A stretch of DNA of 64,000 nucleotides from Draconibacterium mangrovi (GTDB lineage: Bacteria; Bacteroidota; Bacteroidia; Bacteroidales; Prolixibacteraceae). The position numbers and the translations under genes are program-made. The stretch lies in assembly GCF_010586825.1 (NCBI RefSeq), contig NZ_JAAAGB010000004.1, forward strand, positions 186,001-250,000, written 5' to 3'. Each line of letters begins with the position of its first letter. The stretch's first letter is position 1. Below, one piece after another: positions 3,878-49,988 of the stretch. The notes beneath the pieces were generated by a model. That model made no database searches and was not told the DNA's origin. It saw only the letters and a program-made list of their open reading frames with translations.

Positions 3878-5794
3878 ATGTTAGCAATGAGTAGATTAAA
3901 AAACATTCTATTTTTAGTAATCTGTGGAATGTGCTGGATTGGCACATTGGCACAGGATAATAAGCGTTCAGATAAGCTGTTTGAAGAGGCCAGAAAGTAC
4001 TATGTGGAAGATAGTTATCCGGCAGCAATTGAGGCTGCTGACAAGATTTTACAGAAAGATCCGGAGTACGCACCGGCGCATCTTCTTTTGGCTGAAATTT
4101 ATAAAGATATCGACTCATCGCGGCTGGAAATAAAGCACTTGACAAAAGCCGTGGAGCTGGATGATAACCCGCTTATCGATTTCAGACTTGGAGAAGCTTT
4201 TTACAAACTGGGCATGTATTCTGAAGCACTCAGTTTTTATGAAAAATATACGGAAAATAAAAATATCCCGGAGAAACGACAGTTTCTTTTGGCCTGTAAA
4301 ATAGCCAGTTGTCGTTTTGCCATAAACAGCATCGAGAATCCCGTGGCATTTGAACCCACTAATTTGGGCGATGAAATAAACACCGCCAACGATGAATATT
4401 GGCCTACGCCTTCATTAGATGGAAAACATCTGGTGTTTACCAGATTGATGAAAGACGGTGGCAGGCCACAGGAAGATTTTTTTATGGCTGAGATCGATTC
4501 ATTCAACTGGGACAATGCCGTGCCAATGGGCGATGTAAATACTTCAGATAATGAAGGTGCACAAACATTATCCGCCGATTCAAAAATACTGTTCTTTACC
4601 GCCTGTAACCGCGAAGACGGATTGGGAAGCTGCGATATTTATTTCTCGCGTTTGGTTGAAGGCAAATGGACTGTGCCGCAAAATGCAGGAGCGCCGTTAA
4701 ATACTTCGTCGTGGGAAGGACAACCTTCGTTGTCGTCGGATAACCGTTACCTGTATTTCTCAAGTAACCGGACAGGGGGAAAAGGACAAAAAGACATTTG
4801 GCGAATTGCTTTTAACGGATTTTCAGCCGAAGGAAAACCGCAGTGGGGAATGCCAGAAAACATGGAGGCGCTGAATACTTCAGGCGATGAGATTTCACCG
4901 TTTATTCATGCCAATAACCATAACTTTTACTTTGCTTCCGATACACATGTTGGTATGGGAGGACTTGATTTGTTTACCGCCGAAATAAACGAAAACGGCA
5001 AGGTGGAGAACATGAAAAATATGGGCTACCCGATAAACACCTACAAAGATGATATGGGCCTGACCATTAGTTCGATTGGCGATATTGCCTATTTTTCGTC
5101 GGCAAGAGAATCGGATAACGGGCTTGATATTTTTTCGTTTAACCTCGATCGTGGTTTGCAGCCGCGACCTGTAACTTATATCAAGGCAAAAGTGACAAAT
5201 AAGACAAGCAAACAGCCGGTTATGGCCGATATCGAACTGCTTAACCTGAATTCTGCCGTAAGTGAGCCGCGCATCGAAAAGGCCGATGAAAATGGCCAGA
5301 TTATGCTGGCATTGCCCGTTGGCCGTAATTATGCATTTAATGTTTCGGAAGATGGGTTTATGTTTTACTCACAATCCATGCGTTTGGCGGATGAGAATTC
5401 CTTAACTGATCCGTTTATTCTGAACATTGAATTGGAGCCGATAGAAGTTGGAGCCGAAATGGATCTTCACAATATCTATTATGAAACCGATTCGTTTGCT
5501 ATTCTTTCCGAGTCAGAGCCGGAACTTCAGAAACTGGTTGACTTTTTGAAAAACAACAGTGGTTTAAAAGTCGAGATTCAGGGACATACCGATAGTTCGG
5601 GTAATCCGGAAAGTAACCTTGAACTTTCGAAATTAAGGGCAAAATCGGTAGTTGACTACCTCGTTGAAAATGGTATTCCAGGCGGTCGTTTGCAATCGGA
5701 AGGATATGGCGATACAAAACCTGTAGCTACCAACGAAACGGTTGAAGGACGCAGGTTAAACCGTAGAACAACGATTAAAATTATTGCAAAATAA
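3878..5794 (+). CDS. PorE-like TPR / beta-propeller / CRD / OmpA-C outer membrane protein
   Basis: I prefer the ATG at 3878 (or 3887) over the GTG at 3851 because it gives a clean signal peptide ending TLAQ. Order along about 638 residues: TPR repeats (about 25-130), a beta-propeller of PD40/WD40-like blades (about 165-425, repeats of the SLSSDNRYLYFSSNR and ISSIGDIAYFSS kind), a carboxypeptidase-regulatory-like domain (about 430-525) and an OmpA peptidoglycan-binding domain (about 530-638; VEIQGHTDSSG, LSKLRAKSVVDYL, EGRRLNRRTTI). This is the layout of PorE, the peptidoglycan-linked part of the type IX secretion system. PorE is a lipoprotein and this protein shows no lipobox, so it may be a paralogue. 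No other secretion genes are near. Confidence 0.75.
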   Translation: MLAMSRLKNILFLVICGMCWIGTLAQDNKRSDKLFEEARKYYVEDSYPAAIEAADKILQKDPEYAPAHLLLAEIYKDIDSSRLEIKHLTKAVELDDNPLIDFRLGEAFYKLGMYSEALSFYEKYTENKNIPEKRQFLLACKIASCRFAINSIENPVAFEPTNLGDEINTANDEYWPTPSLDGKHLVFTRLMKDGGRPQEDFFMAEIDSFNWDNAVPMGDVNTSDNEGAQTLSADSKILFFTACNREDGLGSCDIYFSRLVEGKWTVPQNAGAPLNTSSWEGQPSLSSDNRYLYFSSNRTGGKGQKDIWRIAFNGFSAEGKPQWGMPENMEALNTSGDEISPFIHANNHNFYFASDTHVGMGGLDLFTAEINENGKVENMKNMGYPINTYKDDMGLTISSIGDIAYFSSARESDNGLDIFSFNLDRGLQPRPVTYIKAKVTNKTSKQPVMADIELLNLNSAVSEPRIEKADENGQIMLALPVGRNYAFNVSEDGFMFYSQSMRLADENSLTDPFILNIELEPIEVGAEMDLHNIYYETDSFAILSESEPELQKLVDFLKNNSGLKVEIQGHTDSSGNPESNLELSKLRAKSVVDYLVENGIPGGRLQSEGYGDTKPVATNETVEGRRLNRRTTIKIIAK

Positions 5795-45176: not shown

Positions 45177-47018
45177 ATGGCTAAAACAAAAACTCAACGC
45201 AATCCCTGGTTTTGGATTCCCACACTCTATTTTGCAGAAGGATTACCCTACGTAATTGTAATGACCCTCTCGGTGATTATGTACAAACGACTGGGTATTT
45301 CAAACACCGACATTGCTTTATACACCAGCTGGCTGTATTTGCCATGGGTGATAAAACCGCTGTGGAGTCCGATTGTGGATTTGCTGAAAACCAAACGTTT
45401 TTGGATTGTGATCATGCAATTGGTGGTTGGCGTTGGGCTGGCCGGTGTGGCATTTACCATTCCTGTCAGTAATTTTTTTCAGTATACTTTGGCGTTTTTC
45501 TGGTTGCTGGCTTTTAGTTCGGCAACGCACGATATTGCCGCCGATGGTTTTTATATGCTGGGCTTGTCGCAGGGCGATCAGTCGTTTTTTGTGGGCATCA
45601 GAAGCACCTTCTACCGCTTTGCCATGCTTACAGGGCAGGGGCTTTTGGTAATTGTTGCAGGAGCTTTGGAAACTGCAACAGGTTTGGAACCGCTGGAGGT
45701 AAATGTTACCGCCCAGAATATTCCGGTTCAGGAAATTTCGTTTAATCCTGAAAGTTATCAGCAACTGCACGAAGCTGGCGATATTTATTTTGTGTCGGAG
45801 AATGAGGTGAAAGTGCCTATTGGTCTGCTAACAAAAGAGCAGGCGGCTGACATTAAAAGCAAGGTGGACGAATGGAACATCAATAATAACTTTTATGCCA
45901 GCGAAACTCCGGTAGCTACAAAAGATGCCGGTTGGTGGACACGAAAAGTGTCAACTCCATTAAAAGAGACGTTAAAAGAGAAATTCAATAAAGAAACGGT
46001 TGACCGGAGTTCGGAGGTAGGTAACCTTGCAATCATTCCAATTCAGCTTTCAACAATACCTGCAGCCGGCGAAGAGGTAGTGCTGAATTTTGGTTACGAA
46101 AAAGGTGACGCCAGTATAAAACTGGTACAGACTTATCGTTATGTGTTTAACGATACGAACTGGGATAAACCTGCTTTTGCCGTTGTTCAACTCGATCCGA
46201 AACTGAAAAAAGCCACGCAGGCTACTTTTGTGGGGCGCTCGGGGAATATCCGCTTTTCCTGGTTGGTGGTTATGGTTTGTATTGCCGTTTTGTTTGTGGC
46301 GTTTTCGCTGTATCACCGTTTTGCTTTGCCATATCCGGCAAGCGATGTATCCAACAAAACCGTAGGCAAAAGTGTAATGGGCGAGTTCTTCGAAACCTTT
46401 GCTGCTTTTTTCCGCAAAAAAGAAATTGTGTCGATAATGCTGTTCCTGTTATTGTACCGACTGGCCGAATCGCAGCTGGTAAAAATGGCCTCGCCGTTTT
46501 TGCTCGATGCCCGCGAAGCAGGTGGACTGGGACTTACAACCGGAGATTTGGGATTGGTGTACGGAACAGCCGGAATGATCGCACTCACCATTGGCGGAAT
46601 TTTAGGCGGTATTGTAGCCTCGCGCAAAGGACTAAAACACTGGCTGTGGTGGATGGCACTGGCCATTAACCTGCCTAACCTTTGTTATTTGCTGCTGTCG
46701 TTTTTAAACCCCACATCGTTGTGGTGGATTTCAGCGGCAGTCGTTATCGAGCAGTTTGGTTACGGTTTTGGATTTACGGCTTATATGCTCTTCTCCATCT
46801 ACGTTTCGGAAGGGAAACATAAAACTGCACATTACGCTATTACAACCGGTTTTATGGCACTGGGAATGATGATTCCAGGAATGCTGAGTGGCTGGTTGCA
46901 GGAAATAATCGGCTACCAGAGTTTCTTTGTTTGGGTGATGATCTGCACCATCCCGATTTTCCTAGTACTGCCGTTTATTAAAGTCGATCCTAAGTTTGGG
47001 ATTAAGGAGAAGGATTAA
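45177..47018 (+). CDS. AmpG-like MFS muropeptide transporter with a large inserted domain
   Basis: 613 residues, inner membrane. The N-terminal six-helix half (PTLYFAEGLPYVIV, TSWLYLPWVIKPLWSPIVD, SATHDIAADGFYM, RSTFYRFAMLTGQG) is AmpG-like, and six more helices follow after about residue 360. Between them is a soluble insert of about 190 residues (about 170-360) containing a Lys/Glu-rich helical part and a beta-rich part. AmpG (E. coli, 491 residues) has no such insert. It imports GlcNAc-anhydroMurNAc(-peptides). Last gene of the operon; 29 bp after the GH9 gene. Confidence 0.82.
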   Translation: MAKTKTQRNPWFWIPTLYFAEGLPYVIVMTLSVIMYKRLGISNTDIALYTSWLYLPWVIKPLWSPIVDLLKTKRFWIVIMQLVVGVGLAGVAFTIPVSNFFQYTLAFFWLLAFSSATHDIAADGFYMLGLSQGDQSFFVGIRSTFYRFAMLTGQGLLVIVAGALETATGLEPLEVNVTAQNIPVQEISFNPESYQQLHEAGDIYFVSENEVKVPIGLLTKEQAADIKSKVDEWNINNNFYASETPVATKDAGWWTRKVSTPLKETLKEKFNKETVDRSSEVGNLAIIPIQLSTIPAAGEEVVLNFGYEKGDASIKLVQTYRYVFNDTNWDKPAFAVVQLDPKLKKATQATFVGRSGNIRFSWLVVMVCIAVLFVAFSLYHRFALPYPASDVSNKTVGKSVMGEFFETFAAFFRKKEIVSIMLFLLLYRLAESQLVKMASPFLLDAREAGGLGLTTGDLGLVYGTAGMIALTIGGILGGIVASRKGLKHWLWWMALAINLPNLCYLLLSFLNPTSLWWISAAVVIEQFGYGFGFTAYMLFSIYVSEGKHKTAHYAITTGFMALGMMIPGMLSGWLQEIIGYQSFFVWVMICTIPIFLVLPFIKVDPKFGIKEKD

Positions 47019-47036: not shown

Positions 47037-47134
47037 GCGCTAAACGGTTTAAAACCGCTAAGCGCATGGTTTGCAGAACAGAAGTTTCGTAAGGGATGTC
47101 ATCTCTCTGAGTTTTATTTAGAAAGATGACATCC
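47037..47134. repeat. Two inverted repeats after the AmpG-like gene
   Basis: First, an imperfect palindrome GCGCTAAACGG-TTTAAAA-CCGCTAAGCGC (47037-47065). Second, a hairpin with arms GGATGTCATCT / AGATGACATCC (47094-47104, 47124-47134) and a 19-nt loop. Either may end transcription of the muropeptide operon, but neither has a good T-run. Confidence 0.55.
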
Positions 47135-47186: not shown

Positions 47187-47264
47187 CCCAGGGCATCGCC
47201 CTGGGGATATTCGAGAAGTGATATCGGGCTGAAAGCCCGGCTTATTAATTTGCCCTTTCAGGGC
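47187..47264. repeat. Cluster of three REP-like palindromes
   Basis: CCCAGGGCATCGCCCTGGG (47187-47205), CGGGCTGAAAGCCCG (47225-47239) and GCCCTTTCAGGGC (47252-47264). Short GGGCNNNNGCCC palindromes of this style are common REP-type elements in Bacteroidota. No gene is present. Confidence 0.6.
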
Positions 47265-47394
47265 GATGGGAAAACAGGCTGTCGGTTTCACAAGGCGTCC
47301 CATTCGCTTTGCCGTTGGGTTCAACTAAATTGAGCTTTCAGCCCGCAGTGTTTCTGTATAAGTTTTTTAAGAGAGATGGCATTCTTTCTTTCCT

Positions 47395-47654
47395 TCCTGT
47401 AAGGATTTTGCTAATCCTGCAGACTTTCTACCCATCCTGTAGGTTATTTATCCACCCTGCAAGGTTCAAAGTCGTCCTGCAAGGGGGTGCCCCTTTCCTG
47501 CGGCGCAGGACAGCGAAATAATGTTGCAGGACGCCCAAAAGTGCTGCAGGATTTCGAAAAACCATCGCAGGACGCCTGGATATGTCGCAGGATTCTGCAA
47601 AAGTGGTGCAGGACGATAGTAAAAGTTAGCAGGACGGGAAATAATCCCGCAGGC
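47395..47654. repeat. Head-to-head array of TCCTGC / GCAGGA boxes at 20-21 bp spacing
   Basis: On the plus strand, six boxes of the form (T/C)CCTG(C/T) start at 47395, 47415, 47435, 47455, 47475 and 47496; then eight boxes GCAGG(A/C) start at 47505, 47526, 47546, 47567, 47587, 47608, 47629 and 47649. Spacing is 20 or 21 bp throughout, close to two turns of DNA. The two sets meet at a perfect central hairpin, TCCTGC-GGC-GCAGGA (47496-47510). Sequence between boxes is not conserved, though often A-rich. Mixed 20/21 spacing rules out a coding repeat. A T6 run follows at about 47660. It lies between the AmpG-like gene and the TPR gene. I know of no described element of this form. Confidence 0.8.
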
Positions 47655-47765
47655 CGCCCTTTTTTGAAACTTTGTCAGCCCCAAAGCCCGTTTTACGCCA
47701 AATCCGCCGATAACAATTCTTGGAAAGCTTTTTGATTATCTATGGTCTTTGTAACTTTGATAAGC

Positions 47766-49988
47766 ATGAACGACAAAGATCTTAAAATAAAATACGATAC
47801 TATCTGTCAGTATTTGGCTGAGCGGAAATTAAAACCTGCTTTCGATCTGCTGGAAAATCTGATCCGTGAAAGTGGTTTGCTCATTCACCTCGATGAATGG
47901 CGCAACCTGGAGCAGAACTACAGCTACATGTTAAAATATACGGTTGAAGGAATTCAGGATCCGGAGCGTCAAAAAGTATATCGGAAGCTGATTGTTTCGG
48001 TTTTTGAGCTGTGCGACAAAATTTACGATGAGCTGAGATTGAAAATGTCGTCGTCGGTTACTTACGAGAAAAAACGCGGATTTAAAACAACACTTCAGTT
48101 TCATACGCTATTAGATGAGCTGGAAGATTTTTACCTGCAGGAGCAACTTGTTTCGCTGGTTGACGATGCCGAGGTACAACGATCATCGAAGCGAATCAGT
48201 GCGCGCGACCATCAGCAAAAAATGGTGACTTTGTTTTATTTCGTATGGTTTCAGAATGAATTAAATGATGAGCACCGTACATTTTTAAAGTCCTTTTTAA
48301 ACAGCGATCTGATTGAAAAATCATACAAGTCGTTTATCGTTTCAGCGCTGCTGATGAGTTTGTTGCGATATTTCGATGAGGCCAAATTTTCGGTGCTTTT
48401 TGATGCCTACGAACACGAAATGCCTGAAATCAATCAGCGGGCAATTGTAGGATTGCTCATCGGCTTTTACCGTTACGACAGTCGTTTGGGGTATTACCCG
48501 TCGATTACCGGCCGGCTGACATTGCTGAACGAAAATCCCGAATTCAAACAAAATCTGGAGCAGGTGATTATTCAGCTCATCAGAAGTAAGGAGACGGAAA
48601 AAATTCAGAAGAAGATCACCGACGAGATTATGCCGGAAATGATAAAGATAAGTCCGAATCTGAAGGACAAAATCAATCTTGACAGTTTGATGGATGATTC
48701 GCTAGGCGACGATGAAAATCCGGAGTGGGAAAAGATTTTTGAGGATTCGCCGGGTCTGATGAATAAAATGGAGGAGTTCTCGGAACTTCAGATGGAAGGA
48801 GCCGATGTGTTTATGAGTTCGTTTGCCATGCTGAAAATGTTCCCGTTTTTTAGCGAATTTACCAATTGGTTTATGCCATTCTATATCAAAAATCCGGAGA
48901 TCGATTTTGTAGTAAATCGCGCCGATTCGGCTACCGATCAGTTTCTGAAAGCCATTGCTACGGCTCCGGTGTTGTGTAATTCGGATAAATATTCGTTCTG
49001 CTTTAGTTTACAAAATATCCCGGCTGAAAACCGCGAGTTTATGGCTGAAGGACTAAAAGCTGAAATGCAGCAGTTTGATGAACTGCAAAGCGATGAGGTG
49101 TTGACTGATCCGGGTAAAAAGGCGGCTTATATTTCAAATCTGTACATTCAGGATTTGTATCGCTTTTTTAAATTACATCCGCGCAAAACCGATTTTGAAG
49201 ATATTTTCAACTGGCGTTTCGATTTTCATAACAAACAAGTGCTTGGCGAAACGCTGAAAGAAGATGCAAACATTGTTCGGAATATTGCTGAATACTATTT
49301 CTTGAAAAACTATTATAACGAGGCCGCCGAAGTTTTTAATTACCTGCTGAGTGAGGAGAAAAGCGGGGAGTTGTTCCAAAAACTGGGTTACTGCTTCCAA
49401 AAGCTGGGCGATTTTGAACTAGCGTTGAAAGCGTATAAAAGTGCCGAGTTGTTTGAGCTTAATAAGAAGTGGAACCTGAATAAAATTGCATTGTGTTACC
49501 GCAATTTAAAACAGCCGAAAAAAGCCCTGGAGTACTACCGCGAGGTGGAACTGCTGGATGAGGAGAATTTAAATGTTCAGCTGAATATTGGCCATTGTTT
49601 GCTGGAGCTGGATCGTTTTGAGGAGGCTTTAAAAACCTATTTTAAAGTGGAATACCTGATGCCGGATAACAAAAAGGTTTGGAAGCCTATTGGCTGGTGT
49701 TCATTGGTGTCCGGTAAGTTTGAGCAGGCAGAGAAATACTTTGCAAAACTGATTGACGACAGTCCAAACAAACACGACCTCATGAATATGGGACATGTGC
49801 AGTGGTGTTTGGGCAAACGAAAAGAGGCGCTGGATTATTACAAGCAGTCGATTGTAAAGACTGAATTTACCGAGAGCGAGTTTTTCGAGGTTTTCCACGA
49901 AGATTTACATTATTTAATTGGATTGGGAATTGATAAGGATGATGTACCAATCATGCTTGATCAGCTGCGGTATTTTGTTGAAGAATAG
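47766..49988 (+). CDS. Large cytoplasmic TPR protein
   Basis: I take the ATG at 47766 (MNDKDLKIKYD); an in-frame start at 47742 is less likely. About 740 residues, all helical, no signal. The C-terminal third (about 500-715) has regular TPR units: LFQKLGYCFQKLGDFELALK, KIALCYRNLKQPKKALEYYR, QLNIGHCLLELDRFEEALKT, GWCSLVSGKFEQAEKYFAK. The N-terminal part is not recognised. TPRs bind proteins, so a scaffold role is likely, but no partner is suggested by the context. The unusual box array lies directly upstream. Confidence 0.75.
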   Translation: MNDKDLKIKYDTICQYLAERKLKPAFDLLENLIRESGLLIHLDEWRNLEQNYSYMLKYTVEGIQDPERQKVYRKLIVSVFELCDKIYDELRLKMSSSVTYEKKRGFKTTLQFHTLLDELEDFYLQEQLVSLVDDAEVQRSSKRISARDHQQKMVTLFYFVWFQNELNDEHRTFLKSFLNSDLIEKSYKSFIVSALLMSLLRYFDEAKFSVLFDAYEHEMPEINQRAIVGLLIGFYRYDSRLGYYPSITGRLTLLNENPEFKQNLEQVIIQLIRSKETEKIQKKITDEIMPEMIKISPNLKDKINLDSLMDDSLGDDENPEWEKIFEDSPGLMNKMEEFSELQMEGADVFMSSFAMLKMFPFFSEFTNWFMPFYIKNPEIDFVVNRADSATDQFLKAIATAPVLCNSDKYSFCFSLQNIPAENREFMAEGLKAEMQQFDELQSDEVLTDPGKKAAYISNLYIQDLYRFFKLHPRKTDFEDIFNWRFDFHNKQVLGETLKEDANIVRNIAEYYFLKNYYNEAAEVFNYLLSEEKSGELFQKLGYCFQKLGDFELALKAYKSAELFELNKKWNLNKIALCYRNLKQPKKALEYYREVELLDEENLNVQLNIGHCLLELDRFEEALKTYFKVEYLMPDNKKVWKPIGWCSLVSGKFEQAEKYFAKLIDDSPNKHDLMNMGHVQWCLGKRKEALDYYKQSIVKTEFTESEFFEVFHEDLHYLIGLGIDKDDVPIMLDQLRYFVEE

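Follow-up and report, generated by a model that had tools for sequence, protein, structure and literature searches.

The phased array of short inverted boxes described here belongs to a widespread and seemingly undescribed kind of bacterial element, in which the gene for an uncharacterised protein of about 250 residues lies beside an array of its own; the present copy lacks the gene. The array was found in a 64,000-nucleotide window (the whole stretch of DNA that was analysed) of the 5.9 Mb genome of Draconibacterium mangrovi, whose genus also includes Draconibacterium orientale.

The window array and its orthologues

Direct reading of the window recovered all of the geometry that an earlier note had claimed, namely six boxes on the left and eight on the right, a spacing of 20 or 21 bp throughout and a switch of orientation (Table 1). 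The central hairpin, TCCTGC-GGC-GCAGGA, is exactly as that note gave it, and both arms point outward from it. The TCCTGC/GCAGGA consensus proposed at the same time is exact in 10 of the 14 boxes and slightly idealised, the other four being one base off. The spacers are dissimilar among themselves; in many of those of the right arm, a short run of A lies roughly one helical turn away from the box, a feature that is not general to such arrays (it is absent from L098, for example), and one in the left arm holds the small AAGGGG-GTG-CCCCTT hairpin that had also been reported. Tandem Repeats Finder returned nothing between 47300 and 47750, indicating that only the boxes repeat and agreeing with the view that this is not a tandem repeat. 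The array is not a CRISPR either, as had likewise been argued, since a CRISPR needs identical repeats of ~25-40 bp and here only ~5-7 bp are conserved, in two orientations. When chains were scored by the best 5-mer together with its reverse complement at steps of 19-22, the window array reached 11, whereas 500 dinucleotide shuffles reached at most 4, as did all 600-bp tiles of the window except the two that overlap the array, so the arrangement exceeds chance. An Rfam search of the window returned two tRNAs and no family matching the array, and a DNA-similarity search of the same genome for further copies returned the self match only.

Table 1. Features in and around the array, in window positions.
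Feature	Position	Strand	Description
Palindrome GGATGTCATCTCTCTG...AGAAAGATGACATCC	47094-47133		recurrent in the genus
REP-like cluster	47190-47350		small palindromes (GCCCAGGGCATCGCCCTGGGG, GGGCTGAAAGCCC, GCCCTTTCAGGGCGAT)
613-aa ORF	45177-47018	+	upstream neighbour; membrane-transporter-like by eye
Left (short) arm	47395-47501	-	six NCAGGR boxes read outward; steps from centre 21, 20, 20, 20, 20; box starts 47395 (TCCTGT), 47415, 47435 (TCCTGT), 47455 (CCCTGC), 47475, 47496
Palindrome AAGGGG-GTG-CCCCTT	47481-47495		inside the first left spacer
Centre	47502-47504		3 nt, GGC, between the innermost boxes
Right (long) arm	47505-47654	+	seven GCAGGA and one GCAGGC; steps 21, 20, 21, 20, 21, 21, 20; box starts 47505, 47526, 47546, 47567, 47587, 47608, 47629, 47649 (GCAGGC)
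Leader of the next gene (TTTTTTGAAACTTTGTCAG...)	47660-47741	+	conserved, present with or without an array; the array ends against it
748-aa ORF	47742-49988	+	TPR-like by eye; orthologues anchor the locus in other genomes

No gene for the ~250-aa protein lies beside the window array. Of the small palindromes upstream, the REP-like cluster also occurs at the orthologous locus of G030 and is repeated at that of G006, and the GGATGTCATCTCTCTG...AGAAAGATGACATCC palindrome has four copies within 1.5 kb of G006 and two in L079.

Orthologous loci were found through the 748-aa gene, which gave 30 same-genus loci for 34 matching genomes. The array occupies the same gap at 9 of these 30 loci, window included, the species with a window-type array being G000, G003, G005, G006, G008, G024, G030, G034 and G036. 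By reading, the array is decayed in G029, reduced to its apparent last unit in G012, and gone from G002 and G013. It abuts the conserved leader in the orthologous loci read except that of G006, where it stands 1.1 kb from the 748-aa-type gene with REP-like repeats between; a palindromic spacer similar to the AAGGGG type is found in the G006 array and in none of the other orthologues read. Arm lengths of the orthologous arrays differ by about one whole unit, with the phase kept. In eight of the nine arrays, compared over the first five right-arm boxes, box identity is 0.914 and spacer identity 0.634, with the peak of box identity at offset 0 of the box mask; these eight were picked by a near-consensus centre, a selection that favours conserved boxes, and L168 of G003, nearly identical to the array of G036, was left out, its centre pattern being unmatched. 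The window array is old at its own place.

Two other accounts can be weighed against this record. The array might regulate the downstream gene locally, as an operator, insulator or roadblock, with the gene-plus-array association a side issue; its position against the leader would fit, but we regard this as very improbable, given that no array was found upstream of the same gene in the close relatives G002, G012 and G013, that it is displaced in G006, and that elsewhere the same architecture follows a different gene. Equally improbable would be a functionless satellite produced by unit duplication and slippage. Arrays do lose units and vanish, and some gene-less arrays persist without a close gene, but the spacers within an array are unlike, the boxes are shared and are more alike across species, and the 3-nt centre and the step pattern recur.

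The nearest candidate binder of the window array would be the ~250-aa protein encoded at L076, where the adjoining array combines TAACAGG/CCTGTTA boxes with a single GCAGG. Five of the nine array-bearing species (G000, G006, G008, G024 and G030) encode a protein with 86% or more identity to the L076 protein, that in G003 and G036 is 57% identical, G034 keeps the array with paralogues of 48-52% only, and G005 keeps it with no protein match at E 1e-10. In G002, G012 and G013, close relatives that lack the array, no paralogue exceeds 50% identity, and six more distant genomes (G007, G009, G010, G031, G032 and G033) encode a protein that is 74-81% identical, split into two pieces in G010, with no array at this place. 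At most, these distributions are suggestive of a loose link between the cognate gene and a window-type array; the gene was rejected as a simple predictor, since gene without array and array without close gene both occur.

Arrays beside a family of ~250-residue proteins

A search with a three-box pattern gave matches in 25 of 61 genomes (the window's own and related ones), many of which are mirrored arrays and some of which resemble coding repeats. The earlier note would have given up its proposal had no related genome held a second example, and the mirrored arrays in related genomes answer that doubt. In 33 stretches read box by box (L036 and L044-L075), the short arm has 4-6 boxes and the long arm 5-8, the first step is mostly 21, and an A run is often present in the spacer; at each of the 15 genus loci with both outward arms chained, the centre measures 3 nt. 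Among the matches listed, several other genus arrays immediately follow, on its 3' side, a gene that encodes a ~250-aa protein. Three full paralogues of this gene are encoded in the same genome outside the window, and the boxes 3' of them are CCTGTTA, TTTCC and TGCGAGG. The TTTCC array was recognised by reading and has a chain score of only 4 from a scorer that missed one-directional words without their reverse complement.

Scanning 84,980 species genomes for the ~250-aa protein yielded 47 gene loci, which span Prolixibacteraceae, Aquimarina, Cyclobacteriaceae, and MAGs of KSB1, Aminicenantes and Deltaproteobacteria. Of 46 loci (L126, with 3 bases only downstream, is omitted), 34 have at least six boxes in the 600 bp that follow the gene on its 3' side; no locus of 47 has them in the 600 bp 5' of it, none of 47 further upstream, and neither does any of 920 shuffles. 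At a threshold of at least five boxes, the corresponding counts are 38/46, 1/47, 0 and 3/920. The 12 loci that miss the six-box threshold include the Deltaproteobacteria locus L122. Gene-linked arrays carry both box orientations in 20 of 31 cases and a single orientation in 11, a count that omits three of the 34 loci, those with a palindromic CCCGG word. No widely conserved neighbour gene was found in flanks of up to 3 kb (shorter at contig ends), the commonest other family occurring in 5 of 50 loci.

Two further arrangements were observed. In a different family of the order, L073 (contig C154 of G046, positions 5008-5436) contains GCAGG arrays with a strict 21-bp step that point inward. In addition, the sequence CCTAAAATAGCTTGACAG, in a variant form in L064, lies just past the array or gene in L063 (~5264), L064, L192, L206 and L107 (~2098), and an ORF that looks transposase-like by eye stands near it in L063, as if such sites attract one type of insertion sequence.

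The loci L063 and L064 are 98% identical gene-plus-array copies of ~1.1 kb within one genome, and gene copies are frame-broken or truncated in L063, L102, L124 and L125, those of L083 and L108 having open frames. Such copies, together with the gene-less arrays found elsewhere, a patchy distribution that reaches the KSB1, Aminicenantes and Deltaproteobacteria MAGs, and the lack of a widely conserved neighbour, are what a mobile element might leave behind, with gene and array behaving like a transposon, boxes acting as recombination sites for the encoded protein and gene-less arrays as non-autonomous copies. We consider this quite unlikely. The proteins have no credible match to a nuclease or recombinase family, no target-site duplication was noticed by eye at the ends of two copy pairs, nine species share the window array as an orthologous element, its absence from G012 resembles a deletion that left the last unit, and the L076 protein has no match in plasmid and phage records.

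The protein set comprises 40 members of the 47 loci (L083, L102, L108 and L123-L126 were left out). Pfam gave no credible match to any of the 40 (best E 0.0055), nor a Y1/HUH transposase at E 0.1, and no toxin family was matched in Pfam or NCBIfam. PADLOC made no anti-phage defence assignment, two families each matching one member of the 40 at E 0.005-0.008, and the PHROGs collection gave a short, weak match of four members to phrog_18511, a family with no assigned function (best E 1.9e-4). Sequence searches found no solved relative; the predicted structure is all-helical (mean pLDDT 91), and a fold search of PDB and viral libraries gave no match at E 0.001. An internal protein repeat was rejected as weak (hhalign probability 35%). 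The pI is below 6 in 33 of the 40 members and 8.6-9.6 in five, and every one of the 40 has a net positive charge over its last 50 residues.

A weak match to the NCBIfam family NF052641 (PQLLE_fam) is found in 33 of the 40 proteins (best E 2.6e-9), although membership was rejected, the rows seen scoring 18-37 bits against a curated cut-off of 80 bits. Beyond this distant match, the two families are alike in that PQLLE genes also adjoin ~21-bp phased arrays. Unlike those described above, the PQLLE arrays are 5' of the gene (9 of 19 loci, against 0 of 19 for the 3' side and 0 of 380 shuffles, counted in the 19 of 22 fetched loci that pass the cut-off, with the partial L145-L147 left out), and eight of the nine have one orientation. 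The PQLLE_fam loci L127-L144 and L156 thus look like a sister system with 5' 21-bp arrays of its own, of which no description was found.

Box types and the protein tail

In the sequences compared, the class of box goes with the protein, though in no simple way. Pairs with the same box class tend to be the more identical in protein sequence (r 0.33 over 44 proteins, a value reached by none of 2000 label shuffles), the 44 being the 31 of 40 members with a class assigned by eye plus 13. Box class is common to 26% of 31 pairs at 80-90% identity, versus 58% of 31 pairs at 70-80%, and L099 and L101, whose proteins are 82% identical, have different classes. In clade 2, seven proteins that are 76-92% identical have TGTAGGA, GGGAGAA, GGTGATA or TGCGGA boxes, with the exceptions that the L203 array is mixed and the L206 gene has no array. 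The type of a clade-2 array occupies its inner 5-8 units. Of 10 walked clade-2 arrays whose type is a different one, 8 have GCGGA-type boxes in outer units, the walk covering 11 of 12 listed arrays (not L217) and leaning towards finding TGCGGA, which was among its target words.

The position at which arrays of different type diverge was followed by sliding DNA identity in 60-bp steps, with L218 included and L223 not. Between L216 and L207, which differ in type, identity is 0.90-0.98 over the gene body, falls from codon ~230 onward to 0.63, 0.55, 0.63, 0.55, 0.60 and 0.55, and is back to 0.78 at an outer unit. The other pairs of different type behave similarly: L216/L215 at 0.77-0.95, then 0.42-0.67 up to +990 and 0.67-0.83 further out; L207/L215 at 0.80-0.95, then 0.50-0.73; and L216/L204 at 0.65-0.92 in the body, 0.67 and 0.75 in the tail, then 0.55-0.62, with 0.93 further out. 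Pairs of the same type keep going (L216/L205 at 0.73-0.90, L207/L220 at 0.75-1.00, L215/L219 at 0.70-0.98 up to +990, and L216/L218 at 0.65-0.87), and stay at 0.75-0.92 through the final ~20 codons and 60 bp beyond them, where different-type pairs drop. Box type, the last ~20 codons and the DNA on into the inner array therefore differ together in clade 2, as block exchange would make them do. A unit-by-unit comparison of L216 with L207 found a kept spacer with a changed box in 2 of 10 units, namely the first unit and one with CGGCTAATAAGCATC/AGC beside different boxes, one unit out of register. Switching of boxes in place was rejected for this pair, the other inner spacers not being alignable, and because only these two units look switched in place, block exchange fits better. 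The link between C-terminal tail and box may reflect DNA linkage rather than specificity. Outside clade 2, the 93% identical proteins of L089 and L211, with CAGG and CGAG box classes, are a candidate case of tail-and-array exchange.

The array as a proposed protein platform and its relation to known systems

Whether DNA or RNA is the functional form of the array can be approached from its position relative to the gene. In 11 of 12 clade-2 loci (one of them L206, which has no array), a terminator-like hairpin lies at most 110 bp past the stop codon and ahead of the array, against 0 of 240 in the control; the wider set has a terminator in 4 of 32, both counts there being made with the scorer that is blind to one-directional words lacking their reverse complement. 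In seven NCAGG-type loci, only 3-6 nt separate the stop codon from the array and no terminator was detected, so that here it may be transcribed with the gene. This would favour an array that acts as RNA, either as a long hairpin with internal loops, formed by pairing of left and right boxes, or through single-stranded boxes that are bound in a sponge-like or 3' UTR RNA. CsrB-type sponges have GGA repeats, which the CAGGA boxes resemble, and as RNA each strand of the window array is more stably folded than dinucleotide shuffles of it (z -3.9 and -4.6), although any inverted boxes would give such a gain. An RNA role is nonetheless rather unlikely. Mirroring leaves half the boxes as complement in any transcript, 11 of 31 arrays are one-directional, the GGTGATA and ACGAGCAA box types lack a GGA core, the window array has no Rfam match, and the clade-2 terminators precede the array. 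The ladder of short stems suggested in the earlier note, examined as pairing between left and right spacers, found no support in the innermost spacers of 12 arrays, whose complementarity (0.394) is no higher than that of random pairings (0.470), though such a ladder may apply to the clade in which the stop codon is followed at once by the array. The terminators, the unpaired spacers and a fold gain expected of any inverted boxes favour recognition as double-stranded DNA.

We therefore put forward, as likely on balance, a reading of these sequences in which the array is a double-stranded DNA platform for the all-helical ~250-aa family protein; where a gene adjoins, the array probably serves as the docking platform of the protein it encodes. 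Each box of ~6-8 bp would be the site of one subunit, and the 20-21 bp step puts the sites on one face of the helix, so that subunits could bind cooperatively, starting at the central inverted pair and spreading outward along both arms. The usual form would be a two-part cassette of gene, sometimes a terminator, and cognate array, and the window copy would be an array without its gene, placed upstream of an unrelated one, to which a paralogue from elsewhere in the genome would bind in trans. The platform could serve to mark or pack a chromosomal site and also for autoregulation or titration of the protein. The cooperative protein spreading from a centre that the earlier note envisaged fits the constant 3-nt centre, the inner and outer box types and the linked gene family, with the binding itself putative. 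The acidic character of most members and the absent fold match count against a platform. A more elaborate version, which we offer tentatively and with some doubt, is a new class of self-recognising chromosomal cassette, made up of a helical protein and its own phased, often mirrored array. Its specificity (C-terminal tail, centre and inner boxes) would be swapped as one block or rebuilt outward from the centre, keeping the paralogues of one genome orthogonal to one another, and gene-less arrays would serve as trans targets that mark or pack chosen sites on the chromosome.

Comparison with known systems sets the element apart from each of them. Phased operator, iteron and parS-type arrays bring numerous short sites together on the same face of the helix, close to the gene of the presumed binder, which is the arrangement seen here, but this element lacks a widely conserved neighbour of the replication or partition kind, is mirrored on a fixed centre and varies in box type between close paralogues; the adjacent Par ATPase or Rep gene expected of a partition or iteron system was not found in flanks of up to 3 kb, where the commonest other family occurs in 5 of 50 loci. 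REP/BIME sequences and their RAYT transposases likewise link a solitary gene to short inverted sequences that diverge with the gene. Membership of that group was rejected on the absence of a Y1/HUH transposase, and the element differs from it in lacking a transposase domain and in being a phased multi-box array instead of hairpins. A type III toxin-antitoxin system was also rejected, since no toxin matched, the arrays are 3' and not 5' of the gene, and 20 of 31 have both orientations. The BrickBuilt MITE of Porphyromonas gingivalis, as set out in an excerpt of its description, is also intergenic, repeated and from Bacteroidota, but is a 23-nt head-to-tail repeat without spacers, whereas here only the box is conserved (PMC4596501). 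TAACTGA heptamers are short direct intergenic repeats, some in Bacteroidetes, for which neither a 20-21 bp step nor a centre nor a linked family of proteins is reported in the excerpted text (PMC4679880). Searches of open-licence papers on phased repeats, Bacteroidetes repeats and PQLLE found no published description of such an element, in agreement with the earlier remark that none was known; given that coverage, the absence is not proof.

If the platform reading is true, these arrays and their genes would be a new kind of protein-DNA element of Bacteroidota and beyond, with an unassigned protein fold. The box types (NCAGGA, TGTAGGA, GGGAGAA, GGTGATA, TGCGGA, TGCGAGG, CCCGGG and others) would form a natural specificity series, some of it on nearly one protein body, so that DNA recognition, the cooperative spread of a protein and its co-evolution with numerous sites could be tested directly. 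The same reading would give meaning to an unannotated gene family and to its linked PQLLE relatives.
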